Assembly: GCA_017963105.1 (NCBI GenBank)
Contig: JAGCTY010000074.1
Location: 1 to 32,861 of the forward strand
DNA length: 32,861 nucleotides
Origin: Lentisphaeria bacterium
Lineage (GTDB): Bacteria > Verrucomicrobiota > Lentisphaeria > Victivallales > UBA1829
Direction of reading: 5' to 3'
Shown: positions 5,224 to 30,738 of the stretch, piece after piece
How positions within the stretch are numbered: the stretch's first letter is position 1
Layout of the letters: every line of letters begins with the position of its first letter
Translations under genes and position numbers: made by a program
The notes under the pieces: generated by a model
The model's database searches: none
What the model was told of the DNA's origin: nothing
What the model saw: only the letters and a program-made list of their open reading frames with translations

Positions 5224-5279
5224 GTGCGCCGGAGCGTAAGCCCGGCACTGCCGCAGTGCAGGCGATGCCTGCTTTTTTT
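5224..5279 (+). repeat. Two-hairpin interspersed element, copy A (ends as a terminator)
   Basis: Copy A of a five-member family. Hairpin 1 is GCCGG/CCGGC around AGCGTAAGC. The linker is CTGCCGCAGT, and hairpin 2 is GCAGGC-GAT-GCCTGC (5258-5272). Only in this copy is hairpin 2 followed by seven T residues (5273-5279), so it could also terminate transcription. Orientation is plus; it lies between the 151-aa gene's terminator and the metY promoter. Confidence 0.75.
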
Positions 5280-12653: not shown

Positions 12654-13955
12654 ATGGATATTGTTTACGGGATACTGCTGGACAACGGCTCCGGGTACAA
12701 CGCCCGGTGCGATTCCTCGCTCGGCCTGCATGTCGGCGACTTCTGCGTGATCCGCAAGGATTTCTACCTGGATTACGGACAGATCGTGAAGCAGTTCGAC
12801 GCGCCGCCGCCGGAATCCGTCCCCGCCGCGCCCGTCGAGGAGGAGCGCGAATCGGGCGGGACCGTGTTTTCCGCGCGGAAGAATGAAATCTACGCGATCC
12901 AGCGGAAGGCGACCGTGGTGGACCAGGGCAAGGCGCACGAGAACCAGATGCGCGCGAAATCGGCCCTGCGGATCACCGGGCAGTACGTGGACCGCCTCGG
13001 GCTGCCCATGAAACTGATCAACGCGCATTATTCGTACGACGGCAAACTCATCACGGTGCAGTTCAGCGCCGAGGGGCGCGTGGATTTCCGCGAACTCGTG
13101 AAGTTGCTGTCGCAGGAATTCAACACGCACATCGAGCTGCGCCAGATCGGCGTGCGCGACGAGACCGCCATCCTCGGCGGCATCGCGAACTGCGGACGCC
13201 CGCTCTGCTGCTGCCAGTTCCTGAAGGATTTCGCGTCCATCAACGTGAAGATGGCCAAGGAGCAGGACCTTTCGCTCACGCCGTCCACGATCTCCGGCAT
13301 CTGCGGCAGGCTGAAATGCTGCCTCAAATACGAGCATGAAGGCTACCTGGAGCTCGAAAAGACCATGCCGAGGCGCGGCGAACTCTGCGAATGCAAGGAC
13401 GGACGCGGCCGTGTGGTCGACCGCAACCTCCTGACGCAGAAAGTCACGATCCAGCTGGAAAACTCCACGCATACCGTGGTCTGTCCCGCCTCCGAAGTCA
13501 CGGTCGTGTACCTCGATAAATACAAGGTGCGCGGCACGGGGCAGGGGGAGAACGCCCCGCGGAAACAATCCGGTTCCGGCGATGCGGACCAGCCCGACGA
13601 TACGAACGGAAATGCCGTGCCCCAGCCGAAGAAGCCCGCACGGCAGGGCGCTCCTGACGGACAGAACCCGAACCGTCCGCACGGACAGCAGCGGAAACAG
13701 CAGGGCGAACGTCCCCAGCGGCCCGCGGGCGATCAGCGTCCGCAGAATCGTCCTCAGCAGACCAATCCGCGTCCTCAGCAGACCAATCCGCGTCCTCAGC
13801 AGAACAATCCGCGTCCTCAGCAGAACAACCCGAACCGACCGCCGCGACCGCCGCGTCCGGAGGGCGGCAGGCAGGAGGGCGGCAGGCAGGACGACGGCAA
13901 GCAGGACGGCGGCAAGTCCGAGAACAACCGTCCGAACCGTCCTCCGCAGGGCTGA
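12654..13955 (+). CDS. ricT: PSP1-domain protein, RicT (YaaT) family, with repetitive tail
   Basis: A 433-aa protein whose first 270 residues are the PSP1/RicT domain. The diagnostic cysteines are present: CGRPLCCC at 180-187 and CGRLKCC at 217-223, between AILGGIAN and YEHEGYLEL. In Bacillus, RicT joins RicA and RicF in an iron-sulfur complex that guides RNase Y; that role here is an inference from family. Residues from about 290 onward form a low-complexity Pro/Gln/Asn/Arg/Gly tail, with four repeats of RPQQ(T/N)NP encoded by a 21-bp tandem repeat, then GGRQ-type repeats. An upstream TTG start (12579) is possible, but the ATG at 12654 begins exactly with the family start MDIVYGILLD. Confidence 0.9.
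   Translation: MDIVYGILLDNGSGYNARCDSSLGLHVGDFCVIRKDFYLDYGQIVKQFDAPPPESVPAAPVEEERESGGTVFSARKNEIYAIQRKATVVDQGKAHENQMRAKSALRITGQYVDRLGLPMKLINAHYSYDGKLITVQFSAEGRVDFRELVKLLSQEFNTHIELRQIGVRDETAILGGIANCGRPLCCCQFLKDFASINVKMAKEQDLSLTPSTISGICGRLKCCLKYEHEGYLELEKTMPRRGELCECKDGRGRVVDRNLLTQKVTIQLENSTHTVVCPASEVTVVYLDKYKVRGTGQGENAPRKQSGSGDADQPDDTNGNAVPQPKKPARQGAPDGQNPNRPHGQQRKQQGERPQRPAGDQRPQNRPQQTNPRPQQTNPRPQQNNPRPQQNNPNRPPRPPRPEGGRQEGGRQDDGKQDGGKSENNRPNRPPQG
13749..13832 (+). repeat. Four tandem 21-bp coding repeats
   Basis: The unit CGTCCTCAGCAGA(C/A)CAA(T/C)CCG occurs at 13749, 13770, 13791 and 13812. It encodes RPQQ(T/N)NP in frame within the RicT tail. Units 1 and 2 are identical, so the number of copies may vary by slippage. 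Confidence 0.9.
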
Positions 13956-20633: not shown

Positions 20634-22799
20634 ATGGCAGACGGCGTAAAACACGAGCATTGGGGCAGTTCATTCGGATTCGTCATGGCGGCGGTCGGTT
20701 CCGCCATCGGACTCGGCAACGTGTGGCGGTTCCCCTTCATCACGGGGGAGAACGGAGGCGGCGCGTTCGTCCTGATCTATCTCCTCTGCATCGCGCTGGT
20801 CGGCCTGCCGGTGATGCTGGCGGAACTTGCCATCGGGCGCGCTTCGCAGGGCGATCCGATCAAGGCGTTCCAGCACTTCGCGATCCGGTCGCCGCGCCTG
20901 CCGAAGGTCGCATGCGGATTCGGGCTGGGGCTGGCCGCCGCGCTGGCGTCCTCCGGCAACTACGGCATGTCGGTCCTGCTGATCATTCTGAGCATCCTGA
21001 TCTACCACTACGGGTGGTCCACGGTCGGATTCTCCTGTACGCTGGTGGCGGGCCTGATCCTGTCCTACTATGCGATCATCGGCGGCTGGATCTTCCTGTA
21101 CGCGTGGAAATCGTTCGCGCATGAGCTCGTTTTCGCCTCGCCGGAAGAGGCCGGGGCGTACCTCGGCAAGGTGTCGTCCAGCGGCTGGCTGTCGTCCGGC
21201 ATGACGCTCGCCTTCATGCTCGCGTCGGCGGCGATCTGCTGGTTCGGCGTGAAGAAGGGCATCGAAACGGTTTCGAAGATCATGATGCCGCTGCTCTTCG
21301 TGCTCGTGGTCGTGCTGGTGATCCGCAGCGTGACGCTGCCCGGCGCGTCGAAAGGCGTGGAGTTCTTCCTGAAGCCGGACTTCAGCAAAATCAACGGTTC
21401 GAGCGTGCTGGACGCCCTCGGACATGCGTTCTACTCGCTGAGCCTGGGCATGGCGATCCTCATCACCTACGGCAGCTACCTGAGCAAGAAACGCAACATC
21501 CTGAAATCCTCGCTCTGGATCGTCTTCTTCGACACGCTCATCGCCATGCTCGCCGGACTCGCCATCTTCCCGGCGCTCTTCGCGCAGGGAGGCAACCCGG
21601 GGCAGGGGCCCGCGCTCGTGTTCAACACCCTTCCGATCACGTTCGAATCCATCCCGGGCGGCCTCGGCTGGCTCTGGAACGGCCTGTTCTTCCTGCTCCT
21701 GGCGATCGCCGCGCTGACCAGCGGCCTGAGCCTGCAGGAGGCGGTCGTGTCCAGCTTCATGCAGAACCTGAAATTGTCGCGCCGCGCCTCCGTGCTGCTT
21801 TCCACCGTGCTGATCACCGGGCTCGGATGCGTGATCTCGTTCAGCGTGAACGACTGGACGCATCTTCCCTCGCTTCACCGTCTGCTCACTGGCCTCTTCG
21901 GCGGCGTGAAGGGCAGCCTGTTCAACCTGATCGACTATGTGGCGAGCAACTGGATCCTGCTCCTGAACGGCCTGGCGGCGGCGTTCTACGCCGGCTGGGT
22001 CTGGGGCACCAACGGCGCGGCCCGCGAACTCTACCGCACCGGAGCCGACCTGAAAGACCTTTCCAAACTCCAGAAATTCAACCGCACGCGCCTCCCGGTC
22101 ATCTCCTGGTCCGTGTTCATCCGCTTCATCTCCCCCGTGCTGATCTTCGTGACGTTCCTGTCCGCGGCCGGTTTCTTCCAGAAGGCCCCGAATCCTCCGC
22201 AGCCCGCCGCCGAAGAACAGCCCGCCGTGCAGGAAACCGCACAGCCGCAGCCCGCGGCGCAGCCGTCCGAGAGAATCGAAGTCGAGGCCACACCTGCCAT
22301 CGAGCCCGCGCCGTTCCACCGTCTGAAGGGCGCCGCGTGGCGTCCGGAACAGTGGTGGAATCCGACCGATGGAGCTGGATTCGCGTTCTCCGCGAACATC
22401 CGTTTTTCTTCGGAACCGGAGGGCGTCGTCCCAGTGCTCTCCGTTTGGGACGAGTTCGACCTCATCACGACTCCGGAGCAGCCTGTGGTCTTCACGGTCG
22501 ACGGTGTGTCGTATGTCGTGCTGCCAGCGCTCGATGAGACGTTTTTCCCCGTGAACCAGTGGGTGAAGCTCGGCATTTCGTGGGATCCCGCGGCGAAACG
22601 TCTGCTGGTCAGTCGCAACGGCAAGCTGTATCCGGTGAATAAGCTTTCATCCCTGCGGGGGCCGGCCGCGTCTCGCCTGAGGGACAACGGATTCAAGGCG
22701 GAGGCCTCCGAAACGGTCTTCGACATCTTCTGCGACCGTCTGTATCCGCATTCTCTTGACCGCGAACAGGCGGCACGAATCTCCGCGCAGGGCATGTGA
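20634..22799 (+). CDS. Sodium-dependent symporter (SNF/NSS family) with LamG-like C-terminal extension
   Basis: A 721-aa protein. Residues 1-520 are a neurotransmitter:sodium symporter with about 12 transmembrane helices. The first helix carries AVGSAIGLGNVWRFPF, the unwound segment that binds sodium and substrate. Substrate is probably an amino acid, but cannot be read from sequence. After the last helix comes a Pro/Ala/Gln-rich linker (about 525-570). It leads to a beta-rich domain of about 150 residues (FAFSANIRF, VVPVLSVWDEFDL, WVKLGISWD, LLVSRNGKLYPVN) that resembles LamG/concanavalin-like domains. Bacterial NSS proteins usually end after the helices (about 450-520 aa), so this extension is unusual. 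The ribosome site is weak (AAAAGGG). The stop codon is part of repeat copy B. Confidence 0.87.
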   Translation: MADGVKHEHWGSSFGFVMAAVGSAIGLGNVWRFPFITGENGGGAFVLIYLLCIALVGLPVMLAELAIGRASQGDPIKAFQHFAIRSPRLPKVACGFGLGLAAALASSGNYGMSVLLIILSILIYHYGWSTVGFSCTLVAGLILSYYAIIGGWIFLYAWKSFAHELVFASPEEAGAYLGKVSSSGWLSSGMTLAFMLASAAICWFGVKKGIETVSKIMMPLLFVLVVVLVIRSVTLPGASKGVEFFLKPDFSKINGSSVLDALGHAFYSLSLGMAILITYGSYLSKKRNILKSSLWIVFFDTLIAMLAGLAIFPALFAQGGNPGQGPALVFNTLPITFESIPGGLGWLWNGLFFLLLAIAALTSGLSLQEAVVSSFMQNLKLSRRASVLLSTVLITGLGCVISFSVNDWTHLPSLHRLLTGLFGGVKGSLFNLIDYVASNWILLLNGLAAAFYAGWVWGTNGAARELYRTGADLKDLSKLQKFNRTRLPVISWSVFIRFISPVLIFVTFLSAAGFFQKAPNPPQPAAEEQPAVQETAQPQPAAQPSERIEVEATPAIEPAPFHRLKGAAWRPEQWWNPTDGAGFAFSANIRFSSEPEGVVPVLSVWDEFDLITTPEQPVVFTVDGVSYVVLPALDETFFPVNQWVKLGISWDPAAKRLLVSRNGKLYPVNKLSSLRGPAASRLRDNGFKAEASETVFDIFCDRLYPHSLDREQAARISAQGM

Positions 22800-22842
22800 G
22801 GCAAAGCCTCAACCTCGGCAGTGCCCGGCTCCGCTCGGACAC
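22797..22842 (-). repeat. Two-hairpin interspersed element, copy B
   Basis: Minus orientation. Read on that strand, hairpin 1 is GTGTCCG/CGGGCAC (one G-U pair) around A-GCGGAGC. Next comes CTGCCGAGGT, then the palindrome TGAGGC-TTT-GCCTCA, which includes the stop codon of the transporter gene. Confidence 0.72.
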
Positions 22843-22925
22843 GAAGGAAAACCGCGTCTCAACCGTGTCCGTGCCGGGGGGATCATGGAATCGTGCCTTA
22901 TTTCGATTTTTTTAACGTTACGGAC

Positions 22926-27230: not shown

Positions 27231-27736
27231 GCGGCGCGCACATGAAGATCGTCCCCGCCGATTTCGAACGCCACGCCCCGCATATCCTGGCGCTTCTGAA
27301 CGATGCCGTCGTGCATACGACTTGGGTGTACGACTGCGATCCGCACCCGGAATCGTACATGCGGGCGTATTTCGACGAGCACGCGGCGGGAAACTACCCC
27401 GTGCTGGCGGCGGAGTCCGACGACGGCGCATTCCTGGGGTTCGCCTCCTGCGGGCCGTACCGGCATTACCAGGGGTATCTGCACGCGGCGGAACTGTCTG
27501 TCTATGTCGAGCCGTCGGCGCGCCGGGCGGGCGTCGGGACGGCGCTGCTGGCGCGTCTGGAGGAGGAATGCCGCAAAATCGGCATCCACACGCTCATCGG
27601 CGTGATCGACTCGGAAAACCTGCCGAGCATCGAACTGCACCGGAAATGCGGCTACGAGTATGCAGGGACCGTGCGGGAAGCCGGCCGGAAATTCGGCCGC
27701 TGGCTCACCATCGTGTATTATCAGAAGATACTCTAA
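27227..27736 (+). CDS. GNAT N-acetyltransferase, phosphinothricin-acetyltransferase-like
   Basis: A 169-aa GNAT-fold enzyme that moves an acetyl group from acetyl-CoA to an amine. The CoA-binding signature is RRAGVGTALLARLEEE (motif A). The order ELSVYVEPSARRAGVG, IGVIDSENLPSIELHRKCGYEYAGTVREAG and FGRWLTIVYYQKIL is that of the Pat/Bar subgroup, whose members acetylate phosphinothricin, methionine sulfoximine or similar compounds. The ATG at 27227 overlaps the GH5 stop; a second ATG at 27242 is also possible. Coupling with a glucanase has no obvious functional reason. The natural substrate is unknown. Confidence 0.88.
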   Translation: MSGAHMKIVPADFERHAPHILALLNDAVVHTTWVYDCDPHPESYMRAYFDEHAAGNYPVLAAESDDGAFLGFASCGPYRHYQGYLHAAELSVYVEPSARRAGVGTALLARLEEECRKIGIHTLIGVIDSENLPSIELHRKCGYEYAGTVREAGRKFGRWLTIVYYQKIL

Positions 27737-27783
27737 TCCGAGCCGGAATTCGAATCCACCTCAGAGGTCCGTCATACGCGCGG

Positions 27784-27830
27784 GGAGGATAATTACTCCA
27801 CTGCAGTAGTGCCGGGCTGCGCTCCGGCAC
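27784..27830 (-). repeat. Two-hairpin interspersed element, copy C
   Basis: Minus orientation, between the convergent GNAT and trpF genes. Hairpin 1 on that strand is a perfect GTGCCGG/CCGGCAC around A-GCGCAGC. The linker is CTACTGCAGT, and the second hairpin is degenerate (GGAG/CTCC with an AATT core). Confidence 0.72.
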
Positions 27831-27851
27831 GGGGATGATTTGAACCTATCT

Positions 27852-28511
27852 CTAAAAATCTGCCAAACGGGCCGCCTTCACAAACGCGCGGCAGAGCGCA
27901 ACGCTTTCCGTACGGTCCGCGGGCGTTTTGACGCCGGTATTCACATCCACGGCATAGGGGCGAACGCGTTCGATAGCGCGTGCGACGTTGGCGGGCGTGA
28001 GGCCGCCGGCAAGGATGACCGGGACCGGGGATTCCTCCACGAACCGCGCGGCGCGGAGCCAGTTTCCGGTGAGCCCGGTGCCGCCGACCTGTCCGGTCTT
28101 CCGGTTGAGCGTGTCGATCAGGAACGCGTCGATGAACGGCACGTAGTCGGCGTACTCGAAAAAGGCGTCCTGCGGTTCGGGATGGACCGCGCGCACGAGC
28201 TTGGCGCATGGCGGGAGGGCGCTGCGGATCGCGGCGATTTCCTCCGGCGTGGACTCCCCGTGGAGCTGAATGTTGCAGACCGCCGCCGCGTCGGCGAGGT
28301 CGAGAATTTCATTTGGCGCAGACAAATGCGTGACCAGCCACGGCTGGACGAACGGCGGCAGGGACCGGGCGAGACGCCGTGCGGTACACGCAAGGATGAA
28401 ATCGGGCGAAGGATGGACCTGTCCGACGAGGAATCCGACGGCGTCCGGCGAGGCGGAGAGCGCCGCCGCCAAATCCGATTCGTTCCTGATGCCGCAGATT
28501 TTGATCCTCAT
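27852..28511 (-). CDS. trpF: Phosphoribosylanthranilate isomerase
   Basis: A 219-aa TIM barrel that rearranges phosphoribosylanthranilate in tryptophan synthesis. The start MRIKICGI contains the catalytic base Cys6, and the general acid is Asp133 in FLIDTLNRKTGQVGGTG. IQLHG, VILAGGLTPANV and the C-terminal phosphate loop VDVNTGV are present; the last is usually VDVSSGVE, so the Ser-Ser pair is Asn-Thr and the Glu is Lys here. It follows coaX by 14 bp on the minus strand and is likely translated from the same mRNA. No other trp gene is in the window. Confidence 0.9.
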   Translation of the reverse strand: MRIKICGIRNESDLAAALSASPDAVGFLVGQVHPSPDFILACTARRLARSLPPFVQPWLVTHLSAPNEILDLADAAAVCNIQLHGESTPEEIAAIRSALPPCAKLVRAVHPEPQDAFFEYADYVPFIDAFLIDTLNRKTGQVGGTGLTGNWLRAARFVEESPVPVILAGGLTPANVARAIERVRPYAVDVNTGVKTPADRTESVALCRAFVKAARLADF

Positions 28512-28525
28512 GACACTGACAAATC

Positions 28526-29224
28526 TCAGCTGAAAAGCAGTTCGACCCCGCGAAGTGTGAAGTCGTCCCCGCCGTCCTTCATGCCGGCGAGTTCCGGCGC
28601 ACGGAGGAAAAACGCGCGGTCGCCGCCGCAGGCGCAGACCGTGGGGCGACGTCCCAGCATCTTTTCGACGCGGGCGAGGAATCCCGCCACGGCGTCGATG
28701 GCGGCGGCGTCGGTGCCCAGGCGGATGGCGTCGGCGGTGTTCGCGCCGGGGGAGGGGGGCAGTTCGTCCGCGAGTTCGATGAACGGGAGTTTCGACGTGT
28801 AGAGATTGAGGGCGCGGCGTGTGAGCGTGCGTCCGGGGAAGATCGCACCGCCGAGGAAGCGCTTCTGCGCGTCGACGACCTCCGCGGTGATGCAGGTGCC
28901 GAAATCAAGCGAAACCGCCGGGAGAATGGCTTTTTTTGTCAAGCAAACGGCATTCGCGACGCGGTCCTGTCCGAGCGTCGATGCATCGACAAGGGAGAAG
29001 TCCACGAAGTGCGATGCGGCCTCCGGGGTAGCGAACCTGACGCCTCGAGCCCGCAGCGCATCCATCTTTTCCGCTACGACGCATGCCGCGGCGATCTCCG
29101 CGCCGTCCGGGAGCGATGCCGGATCGAAGACTGCCGTCGGGACAGTGCGAAGCATACAGTCCCCGCCTGGAGCGACCTCGAGAATCTGCGTGTGTGTGTT
29201 TCCGATGTTCAGAAAGCAGCGCAT
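28526..29224 (-). CDS. coaX: Type III pantothenate kinase
   Basis: A 232-aa ASKHA-fold kinase for the first step of coenzyme A synthesis. Family marks: LNIGNTHTQI at 5-14, GQDR with the expected catalytic Asp, DFGTCITAEVVDAQ, and LGGAIFPGRTL. The phosphate-1 motif is normally DxGNT, but its Asp is Asn6 here. The longer reading frame that continues upstream is not the gene: it runs through a repeat element and a duplicated gene fragment. The ATG at 29224 has CGGGAGG eight bases upstream and starts where the family does. It is followed by trpF. A duplicate of its first 12 codons lies 134 bp upstream. Confidence 0.88.
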   Translation of the reverse strand: MRCFLNIGNTHTQILEVAPGGDCMLRTVPTAVFDPASLPDGAEIAAACVVAEKMDALRARGVRFATPEAASHFVDFSLVDASTLGQDRVANAVCLTKKAILPAVSLDFGTCITAEVVDAQKRFLGGAIFPGRTLTRRALNLYTSKLPFIELADELPPSPGANTADAIRLGTDAAAIDAVAGFLARVEKMLGRRPTVCACGGDRAFFLRAPELAGMKDGGDDFTLRGVELLFS

Positions 29225-29233
29225 GGATGCGCA

Positions 29234-29263
29234 CCTCCCGAAAAAGAAAAAAGGTCCCGCCTG
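29234..29263 (-). repeat. Second, half copy of the pilC terminator, before coaX
   Basis: On the minus strand CCAGGCGGGACC followed by TTTTTTC and TTTTTCGGGAGG repeats the right arm and T run of the terminator at 29431-29461. The left arm is missing, replaced by repeat copy D. The coaX ribosome site GGGAGG lies inside this piece. Confidence 0.7.
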
Positions 29264-29310
29264 GCAGGCGAACGCCTGCACGGCAGCAGTGCGCGGCTCC
29301 GCTCGCGCAC
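29264..29310 (-). repeat. Two-hairpin interspersed element, copy D
   Basis: Minus orientation. Hairpin 1 is a perfect GTGCGCG/CGCGCAC around A-GCGGAGC; both arms differ from copies C and E in a matching way. The linker is CTGCTGCCGT and hairpin 2 is GCAGGCG-TT-CGCCTGC (29264-29279). Confidence 0.75.
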
Positions 29311-29321
29311 GAGGAAGATAG

Positions 29322-29358
29322 CTGTATGTGTGTTTCCGATGTTCAAAAAGCAGCGCAT
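29322..29358 (-). pseudogene. Duplicated 5' fragment of coaX
   Basis: The ATG at 29358 (minus strand) begins MRCFLNIGNTHT, identical in protein to the first 12 residues of coaX at 29224. The three base differences in these codons (CTG/TTG, CAC/CAT, ACG/ACA) are all silent. Similarity stops after this (AIFLV instead of QILEV), the frame runs into repeat copy D, and it ends at a TGA overlapping the real coaX start region. No good ribosome site precedes it; repeat copy E lies where one would be. Confidence 0.75.
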
Positions 29359-29378
29359 GGCCTTTTTTTCCGTATCCT

Positions 29379-29426
29379 GTGCCGGAAGCGAAGCCCGGCA
29401 CTGCCGAAGTGGAGGACTTGTCCTCC
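29379..29426 (+). repeat. Two-hairpin interspersed element, copy E
   Basis: Plus orientation, opposite to copy D 68 bp away. Hairpin 1 is a perfect GTGCCGG/CCGGCAC around AA-GCGAAGC. The linker is CTGCCGAAGT and hairpin 2 is GGAGGA-CTTG-TCCTCC (29411-29426). Confidence 0.75.
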
Positions 29427-29430
29427 CCGG

Positions 29431-29461
29431 AAAAGAAAAAAGGTCCCGCCTGGGCGGGACC
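29431..29461 (-). terminator. Terminator after pilC
   Basis: On the minus strand GGTCCCGCC (29461-29453) pairs with GGCGGGACC (29450-29442), followed by TTTTTTCTTTT. It is a strong rho-independent terminator 14 bp past the pilC stop. Confidence 0.88.
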
Positions 29462-29475
29462 GTGTTCGAGGCGGA

Positions 29476-30738
29476 TCAGCCGCCGCCGAGGGTCTGGATG
29501 ATGGTGATCAGCGGGCTGAACAGAGCGATAACGATACCGCCGACGATGACGGCCAGGAAGACGATCATCAACGGTTCGATCATGGATGTCAGGGCGCTGA
29601 CGGCGTTGTCGACTTCCTCGTCGTAGGTGTCTGCGATCTTTTCGAGCATGTCGGGGAGCTTGCCTGTTTCCTCGCCGACCTCGATCATACTGATGACCAT
29701 GTCGGGGAAGATCTTGGTGGACTGAAGCGGCGGGGCCATCGGTTCGCCTTCCTTCACTGCGTCGTGGACCTGCTGGACGGCCTTGGAGACCAGTTCGTTG
29801 CCGGCGGTGTCGCGGACGATCTGGAGGGCGTTCAGGACGGGGACGCCGGAGCCCATGAGGGTGCCGAGGGTACGGGAGAATTTGGAGATGGCGTTGCGGG
29901 AGATGAGCAGTCCGATGATGGGCGCGTTGTAGATGCCCTTGTCGAAATAGAACCTGCCCTTCTCCGTCTTGAGAATGAATTTCGTGGCGATCACGAGGAC
30001 CACGATAATGATGATGGCGATGATGATGTTGTTCTGGAGCCAGCGGCTGACGCCCATGACGAAACGGGTGATGGCCGGCAGCTGTGCGCCGTCGAGCATT
30101 TCCGTGAACATCTGCTCGAATTTCGGGACGATGAAGATCATGAGGAAGATGGTGATGCCGATGGCGATGGAGAGCACGATGGCCGGGTAGACCATGGCGG
30201 ACTTGACCTTGCCGGCGATCTTGGCGGCCTTTTCGCGGAAGCCAGCCAGACGGGTGAGGATCAGTTCGAGCTTACCGGCGGCCTCGCCGGCGCGGATCAT
30301 GTTCAGATAGAGTTTATCGAACGATTTCGGATGCTGCGCGAGCGCTTCGGAGAAGGTGGAGCCGCCTTCGACGGAGTAGGCGACCTTTCCGAGAATGGTC
30401 TTCACGGACGGGTTTTTGGCCTGGCGTTCGAGCGTCTTGAGCGAGCGGATCAGCGGGAGGCCGGCGTCGAGCAGGATGGCGAGCTGACGGGTGAAGACGG
30501 TCAGGTCCTTGCCCTTCATGACCACGGGGCCGAGGTTGAGGTTCAGGCCTTTCGAGGCGGACGGGCCCTTGGCCTTTTCCTTTTTGGCCTTGGCCGCCTT
30601 GGCGAGCGGCTTGATGGAGGTGGGGAACATCCCCTGTTCTTTCAGGAACGATGCGACGGCTTCTTCGCTTGCGGCTTCGTGCTGTCCCTTCTGTTCCTTA
30701 CCGGATGCATCCATCGCGGTGTATTGGAAGATCGGCAT
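29476..30738 (-). CDS. pilC: Type IV pilus / type II secretion inner-membrane platform protein
   Basis: A 420-aa PilC/GspF-family protein that anchors the assembly ATPases in the inner membrane. It starts with MPIFQYTAMDASGKEQKG, typical of the family, and has a charged linker (AKAAKAKKEKAKG). Two homologous T2SSF domains follow, at about 75-200 (FTRQLAILLDAGLPL) and 285-405 (FSRTLGTLMGSGVPVLNAL). Three hydrophobic helices are visible: about 185-205, 235-255 (IIIAIIIIVVLVIA) and near the C-terminus (MIVFLAVIVGGIVIALFSPL). It is the last gene of a minus-strand run pilB-pilT-pilC, 44 bp after pilT. A strong terminator follows. Confidence 0.95.
   Translation of the reverse strand: MPIFQYTAMDASGKEQKGQHEAASEEAVASFLKEQGMFPTSIKPLAKAAKAKKEKAKGPSASKGLNLNLGPVVMKGKDLTVFTRQLAILLDAGLPLIRSLKTLERQAKNPSVKTILGKVAYSVEGGSTFSEALAQHPKSFDKLYLNMIRAGEAAGKLELILTRLAGFREKAAKIAGKVKSAMVYPAIVLSIAIGITIFLMIFIVPKFEQMFTEMLDGAQLPAITRFVMGVSRWLQNNIIIAIIIIVVLVIATKFILKTEKGRFYFDKGIYNAPIIGLLISRNAISKFSRTLGTLMGSGVPVLNALQIVRDTAGNELVSKAVQQVHDAVKEGEPMAPPLQSTKIFPDMVISMIEVGEETGKLPDMLEKIADTYDEEVDNAVSALTSMIEPLMIVFLAVIVGGIVIALFSPLITIIQTLGGG

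Follow-up and report, generated by a model that had tools for sequence, protein, structure and literature searches.

The gap between pilC and coaX in a Lentisphaeria genome carries two oppositely oriented copies, D and E, of one two-hairpin repeat, together with a second copy of a terminator arm and of the coaX start, whereas ten related genomes hold the same gap in a short single-copy form without either element. The account that we favor, at somewhat better than even confidence, is that D and E represent two separate insertions, the insertion of D having made the duplication and E having entered the redundant copy later. The window, the whole 32,861-nt stretch analyzed, corresponds to contig C180 of a draft genome that totals 3.03 Mb in 187 contigs, with 87.4% completeness and 6.6% contamination. 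The best named matches to its pilC come from uncultured Lentisphaeria/Victivallales genomes, several of them from rumen samples.

Architecture of the pilC-coaX gap

Read along the minus strand, the 251-nt gap opens with a complete terminator hairpin and its T-run; E comes next, then 37 nt copied from the coaX start, then D, and finally another terminator right arm, again with a T-run, before the ribosome site of coaX and coaX itself. Direct repeats and covariance model (CM) matches bear out both the order and the positions of these parts given in the first-pass annotation. The features are as follows.

29476-30738, minus strand: pilC, a type II secretion F domain protein (Pfam T2SSF, E 5e-64), upstream of the gap
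29431-29461, minus strand: complete pilC terminator, with hairpin 29442-29461 and T-run (A on the plus strand) 29431-29441; like the terminators in ten congeners
29379-29426, minus strand: repeat E, with HP1 at 29411-29426 and HP2 at 29379-29401; CM match 29378-29427, 60.0 bits
29361-29378, minus strand: HP2-side tail of E, with an A-run, from sequence; joins E to the coaX-start copy and is missing in single-copy gaps
29324-29360, minus strand: unit 1 copy of the coaX start, ~12 codons long, with its ATG at 29358; from direct repeat and resampling
29311-29323, plus strand: HP2-side tail of D, from sequence
29264-29310, plus strand: repeat D, with HP1 at 29264-29279 and HP2 at 29289-29310; CM match 29263-29311, 63.4 bits
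29237-29264, minus strand: second terminator right arm and T-run (unit 2), from direct repeat; left arm missing
29234-29239, minus strand: intact coaX ribosome-binding site, GGGAGG, from sequence; a GGAGG-type site stands in the same place in ten congeners
28526-29224, minus strand: coaX, type III pantothenate kinase (Pfam Pan_kinase, E 2.4e-23)

Two direct repeats define the duplication. The coaX start at 29190-29226 recurs at 29324-29360 (37 nt, 35/37 identical, 95%) with a spacing of 134 nt, and the terminator arm with T-run at 29237-29264 recurs at 29426-29453 (28 nt, 27/28, 96%) with a spacing of 189 nt; the difference between the two spacings, 55 nt, is approximately the length of one E. 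In 300 first-order resamples of the gap the corresponding maxima were 25 and 20, the observed values never being reached. The duplication of terminator arm plus coaX start that the first-pass annotation saw in the gap is supported.

Unit 1 begins with the right arm and T-run of the complete pilC terminator, carries E in place of its ribosome-binding site, as the same annotation had also held, and includes the coaX-start copy, which has no ribosome-binding site of its own. Unit 2, from the second terminator arm to coaX, is free of E and has kept its ribosome site. The copied ATG lies out of frame with coaX because 134 nt is not a multiple of three; this, the missing ribosome site and the absence of the copy in ten relatives led to rejection of a functional second coaX start. 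The A-run in the tail of E (29361-29378) is framed like an inverted terminator tail and, in the predicted minimum-energy fold, pairs around E with the upstream T-run.

The same gap in related genomes

Comparison was extended to 41 genomes, 13 of them of this genus. Ten of the 12 other genus genomes show a readable single-copy gap of 61-73 nt without D or E (loci L011-L019, and L039 of genome G001), the empty, unduplicated form for which the first-pass annotation had proposed that close relatives be searched. The pilC-coaX gap of the divergent congener G007 (L048) is unrelated, and a coaX match was not found in G009. Among the matches listed in a DNA search of the 13 genus genomes, only the window itself matched the full query. 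The single-copy gaps in ten congeners identify the arrangement in the window, therefore, as the derived state.

In those ten congeners (L011-L019, L039), the terminator T-run almost abuts the coaX ribosome site, leaving little promoter room, and coaX in these relatives may depend on read-through or on an attenuator-like arrangement.

A two-hairpin repeat family restricted to one genus

D and E are copies of the same two-hairpin repeat, and the family occupies five places in the window, the other three being the following.

27783-27831, plus strand: repeat C (CM, 62.6 bits), in the gap that follows trpF; its HP1 side bears a degenerate trpF 3' end copy
22795-22843, plus strand: repeat B (CM), at a site that is empty in six relatives
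5225-5274, minus strand: repeat A (CM), with its HP1 end flush with flank common to G005 and G002

The covariance model, R1, was built on 44 copies, with D and E in its training set. It describes two hairpins: the stem of HP1 varies greatly, and HP2 starts with GTG and ends with CAC. The stems show compensatory changes: in alignment A1, 66 cells are changed on two sides versus 25.7 in shuffles, and 85.8% of cells are paired, a value that falls to 36.6% and 40.5% after a one-column shift of the partner. Of five measures on A1, two do not rise above the shuffles, namely pairs changed on both sides (9 versus 8.3; 221/500) and further pair types (25 versus 22.7; 86/500). The lower pairing of HP1 on A1 (68.6%) results from 15- and 16-nt forms being out of register in that alignment. 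A2, with 82 copies, gives 121 two-sided changes versus 36.2 in shuffles, its pair counts leaning toward the model to which it was fitted. The tag before HP2 reads GTAG in 18/79 copies, GYAG in 55/79 and NNAG in 74/79, a complete tag being missing from three of the 82 aligned copies.

At E<=0.01, the CM finds at least 80-154 matches per genome in 12 of the 13 genus genomes, values that are lower bounds because approximately 150 candidates were scored per genome. Counts exceed 100 in ten genomes and are at least 80 in G009 and at least 84 in G006; the divergent congener G007 has none at this threshold. In the window's own genome, 46 sequences match E, E itself counted. Searches of 23 further genomes of the same taxonomic family gave no match to the repeat at E<=0.001, and in a 90-genome sample of the order, searched at E<=1e-5 with stricter filters, only the same 12 genus genomes match and none of the 77 non-genus genomes does.

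Crude, purpose-made gene calls place the 94 loci found in 1.57 Mb in 26 convergent, 38 tandem and three divergent gaps and, in 27 cases, inside ORFs; the intergenic bases available amount to 40,640 (convergent), 101,418 (tandem) and 32,246 (divergent), and some of the stretches had been picked for earlier matches, making element density there unrepresentative. Measured to a gene 3' end, the repeat has a median distance of 19 nt (n=64). A stop triplet, in any frame, directly precedes HP1 in seven of 54 listed single copies, and at site B the repeats of G005 and G012 overlap with the upstream gene's stop codon.

A known RNA family was rejected, with no match above the Rfam gathering thresholds in the window, L221, L283 or L287; the pilC-coaX gap has two sub-threshold matches (E 0.37 and 4). 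A phage- or plasmid-borne repeat was likewise rejected, as E has no match at E<=0.01 in phage and plasmid collections, and a search of viral contigs with one exact pattern of the repeat found nothing. In G010, an element at L284 6652-6901 is flanked by two copies of another, A/T-rich hairpin repeat, which may represent a second repeat family.

Junctions compared with empty sites

Filled and empty sites can be compared directly in this genus, and the HP1 end is often the precise one. In the pilC-coaX gap, the flank match ends at HP1 of D (-6 to +3 nt) and at HP1 of E (-1 nt) in 10/10 comparisons; D, inverted relative to E, directly adjoins the second terminator arm at its HP1 end. At the trpF end, the HP1 side falls within 5 nt in 5/9 comparisons for G003, 6/7 for G004 and 2/6 for G000, the window's own genome. 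The corresponding values at site B are 6/6 for G012, 6/6 for G005 and 4/6 for G000, and the same closeness is found for copy A (2/2) and L286 (1/1). At trpF, site B, copy A and L286, the HP2 side is unmatched by at least 26 nt in the HP1-flush comparisons.

The polarity is not uniform. The HP2 side is instead the closer one for C against G005, G001 and G012, for B against G011 and G008, for L217 against G011 and G002, for L203 against G011, and for L287. L228, L239 and L287 are not flush, and their empty sites align poorly; L209 gives a mixed picture (5 and -17), and both ends of L211 are close. The insertion at site B has a flank overlap of only ~2-3 nt. By eye, the HP1 joints inspected have 2-3 nt of C/G in common with the target, and the HP2-side tails display no common terminal motif.

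A single precise end suggests a primed-synthesis or template-switch reaction. The combination of a precise end at 2-3 nt of C/G, a ragged end, and variable duplication or deletion looks most like nick-primed or replication template-switch copying of the hairpin repeat.

Duplicated flanks at other loci

An element lying between two copies of its flank is found at a few other places. In G003 and G004, the trpF 3' end stands on both sides of the element, with an overlap of 28-35 nt relative to empty sites, and the site is empty in G005, G010, G008, G002, G001 and G012; G003 has three elements here in an array of 113-nt period. The tails of the trpF carriers look alike, and repeated insertion, loss or exchange are therefore all possible. 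A FastTree analysis of five loci does not group the carriers, some of its nodes being weakly supported, and the carriers may not be independent cases. In the window (27715-27935), the sequence behind copy C is by eye closer to the relatives' trpF ending than the present gene end is, and the 3' end of trpF here appears to have been displaced.

Gene-end copies also enclose an element at L281 11664-11826 in G011 and at L235 10109-10457 in the window's own genome (G000), the latter as a 112-nt array; the two look like one orthologous gene end. The element at L269 in G011 has its duplicated flank in a terminator right arm, a situation also seen in the coaX gap.

A survey of 1.57 Mb, which used 80 of 82 and 62 of 69 CM matches with the weakest omitted, yielded 84 tandem-repeat regions, of which, by purpose-made gene calls again, 46 are coding, 15 noncoding without an element, 14 element-only (periods of 42-51 nt) and nine with flank, defined as at least 50 repeated non-element bases. 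Two of these nine were discounted, L221:9832 as an element-only array and L284 as the other hairpin repeat, leaving seven, compared with 94 element loci. With seven flank regions among 94 loci and 15 element-free duplications, any enrichment is therefore modest, and a strong enrichment of duplications at elements was rejected, the 14/38 regions of a smaller count being largely element-only arrays. Universal long target duplication was also rejected: when the left flank was compared with the right in 92 distinct arrays out of 161, values of at least 23 were obtained in nine rows at six places and at most 15 in the rest. Long flank duplication is the exception among element loci.

Tandem repeats of other kinds were seen as well. 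The window contains 21-nt repeats at 13728-13853, probably in coding sequence, and L231 11394-11588 of the same genome has an 89-nt tandem duplication, with a period of 106 nt, that resembles a tRNA gene.

Proposed order of events in the gap

In the favored account, the ancestral gap would have consisted of the pilC stop, the terminator, the ribosome site and coaX. D would have entered the terminator loop, placing its HP1 end against the right arm, and the same event would have duplicated a target of ~75 nt, from the terminator right arm to coaX codon 12, on the other side of D, leaving a short tail between HP2 of D and the duplicate. Of the two neighboring genes, pilC retains a full terminator and coaX its own ribosome site and start. 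E would then have been inserted into the redundant unit 1, replacing its ribosome-binding site and ~11 nt of target. That D preceded E is suggested by unit 2, which is clean of E. The position of D at the junction, its flush HP1 end and the occurrence of an element between flank copies at a few other loci fit a duplication made by D better than the entry of D into an existing copy.

The latter sequence of events, close to the view of the first-pass annotation, is the most serious competitor, although we consider it improbable. Replication slippage would first have made a plain tandem duplication, with D later striking the junction and E the redundant copy. The 15 element-free noncoding duplications in 1.57 Mb show that duplications of this kind occur, E does lie within the redundant copy, and most element loci have no long duplication; this order of events nevertheless requires D to have struck the junction itself, with HP1 flush with unit 2, and the element-at-junction layout recurs at trpF, L281/L235 and L269. 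The annotation's proposal that both elements inserted into a redundant copy is accordingly sustained for E, inside unit 1, and not for D as stated, which sits where the copies meet.

A single composite arrival is less probable still. D, the coaX-start copy and E would have come as one REPIN-like inverted pair with HP1 at the outer ends, generating a target duplication of 21-30 bp (terminator arm and T-run). Both outer HP1 ends are indeed flush, the flanks overlap by 21-30 nt relative to ten relatives, and for REPINs the proposed mobile unit is likewise an inverted REP doublet (PMC3116915). The putative cargo, however, is a coaX start that natively lies 11 nt from the repeated arm, making a separate target duplication abutting it a coincidence, and the other duplicated-flank loci inspected carry single or same-orientation elements.

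Recombination with element copies elsewhere is very improbable as the source of the rearranged gap: element-only arrays suggest that copies slip or recombine, but both flanks are syntenic with ten relatives and the gap holds only local sequence, elements and short tails. Two other arrays (L235, L221) reach contig ends. An assembly artefact, conceivable in a draft metagenome-type genome of 187 contigs with 6.6% contamination, has equally little to recommend it, because the copies differ at 3/65 aligned bases and similar layouts occur in the assemblies of other genomes.

The reading of two insertions, the first of which made the duplication, can be placed in a broader and doubtful scheme of polarized spread. 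Copying would be primed at a 2-3 nt match, start exactly at HP1, proceed through HP1, HP2 and a variable tail, and end by rejoining at a variable distance, such that from a few to ~75 nt would be duplicated or deleted with no dedicated RAYT. Long duplications would then act as a safe-insertion device that spares both neighboring genes and allows later precise loss.

Search for a mobilizing enzyme

No RAYT was detected in the 13 draft genomes of the genus, and PF01797 was not found in the window's own incomplete draft. A PF01797/Y1 transposase match occurs in four of these 13 incomplete drafts, full-length only in G012 (L241 1423-1953), with partial IS200/IS605-type matches in G005, G001 and G002. 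The G012 enzyme is IS200-type, scoring 32 bits against REP_Tyr_transpos, below the cut-off of 80, and R1 has no match at E<=1 in L241-L244 (9,805 bases), arguing against ends common to the IS copy and the repeat. Reverse transcriptase (RVT_1) is present in seven of the 13 genus genomes and was not found in the repeat-bearing G012, G009, G002, G008 and G011. Neither RAYT nor reverse transcriptase is co-distributed with the repeat, and both were rejected as genus-wide mobilizers.

Relation to known systems and implications

The repeat is best read, from its sequence and distribution, as a genus-restricted, REP-like, two-hairpin element with neither a strict GTAG tag nor a detected RAYT. REPs of the GTAG super-family are described by Di Nocera et al. 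2013 (PMC3733652) and Nunvar et al. 2010 (PMC2817692) as small, high-copy intergenic hairpins near gene 3' ends that are rare between divergent genes. They usually exceed 100 short palindromic repeats per genome, as do the matches in ten of the 13 genus genomes here, and the family similarly lies near gene 3' ends and avoids divergent gaps (three of 67 placed loci). In most REP families, more than 90% of members keep the terminal GTAG tag, with degenerate forms such as GYAG in some; in the present family GYAG stands before HP2 in 55/79 copies. Large REP clusters are reiterated in tandem with flanking DNA segments (PMC3733652). The present family differs in its strict GTAG frequency of 18/79, in having an additional hairpin of different sequence, HP1, whose stem varies greatly, and in the RAYT result for the genus.

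REPINs of Pseudomonas fluorescens SBW25, according to Bertels and Rainey 2011 (PMC3116915), are also hairpin-forming miniature elements with compensatory changes, and tandem clusters with flanks have already been published for them. A REPIN, however, pairs two inverted copies of a single REP and is linked to RAYT genes, whereas the unit here is HP1 followed by an unlike HP2; D and E are inverted relative to one another, but with the coaX copy between them. Hairpin-based single-strand mobility of the kind used by IS200/IS605 elements and their non-autonomous derivatives would suit the repeat, although according to PMC2817692 IS200/IS605 elements make no larger target duplications. The sole full-length match in the genus (G012, L241), moreover, has no repeat in its locus, and the loci of the partial matches likewise carry no member of the family.

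Target-primed and template-switch insertions (LINE/SINE, FoSTeS/MMBIR) combine a precise with a ragged end, variable target duplication or deletion, and short microhomology, all of which have counterparts here. In this case, no reverse transcriptase is common to all element-bearing genomes, and an RNA or replication intermediate would have to be supposed. In a partial literature collection, searches on Lentisphaerae/Lentisphaeria palindromic or rumen repeats returned no such family among the titles listed, and searches on bacterial miniature inverted repeats with long target duplications and on small-palindrome insertion sites found none. Dissemination of REP-like repeats in general is called poorly understood in the abstract of PMC8266576.

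In this genus, occupied sites can be set beside empty ones; several show a junction that is precise on one side, and the duplicated gene ends may be a record of how insertion proceeds. Should the polarity persist across a larger sample, the mechanism would be constrained without experiment. For annotation, the gap carries a warning: a surplus gene start or half terminator can be the scar of an insertion rather than a regulatory part.
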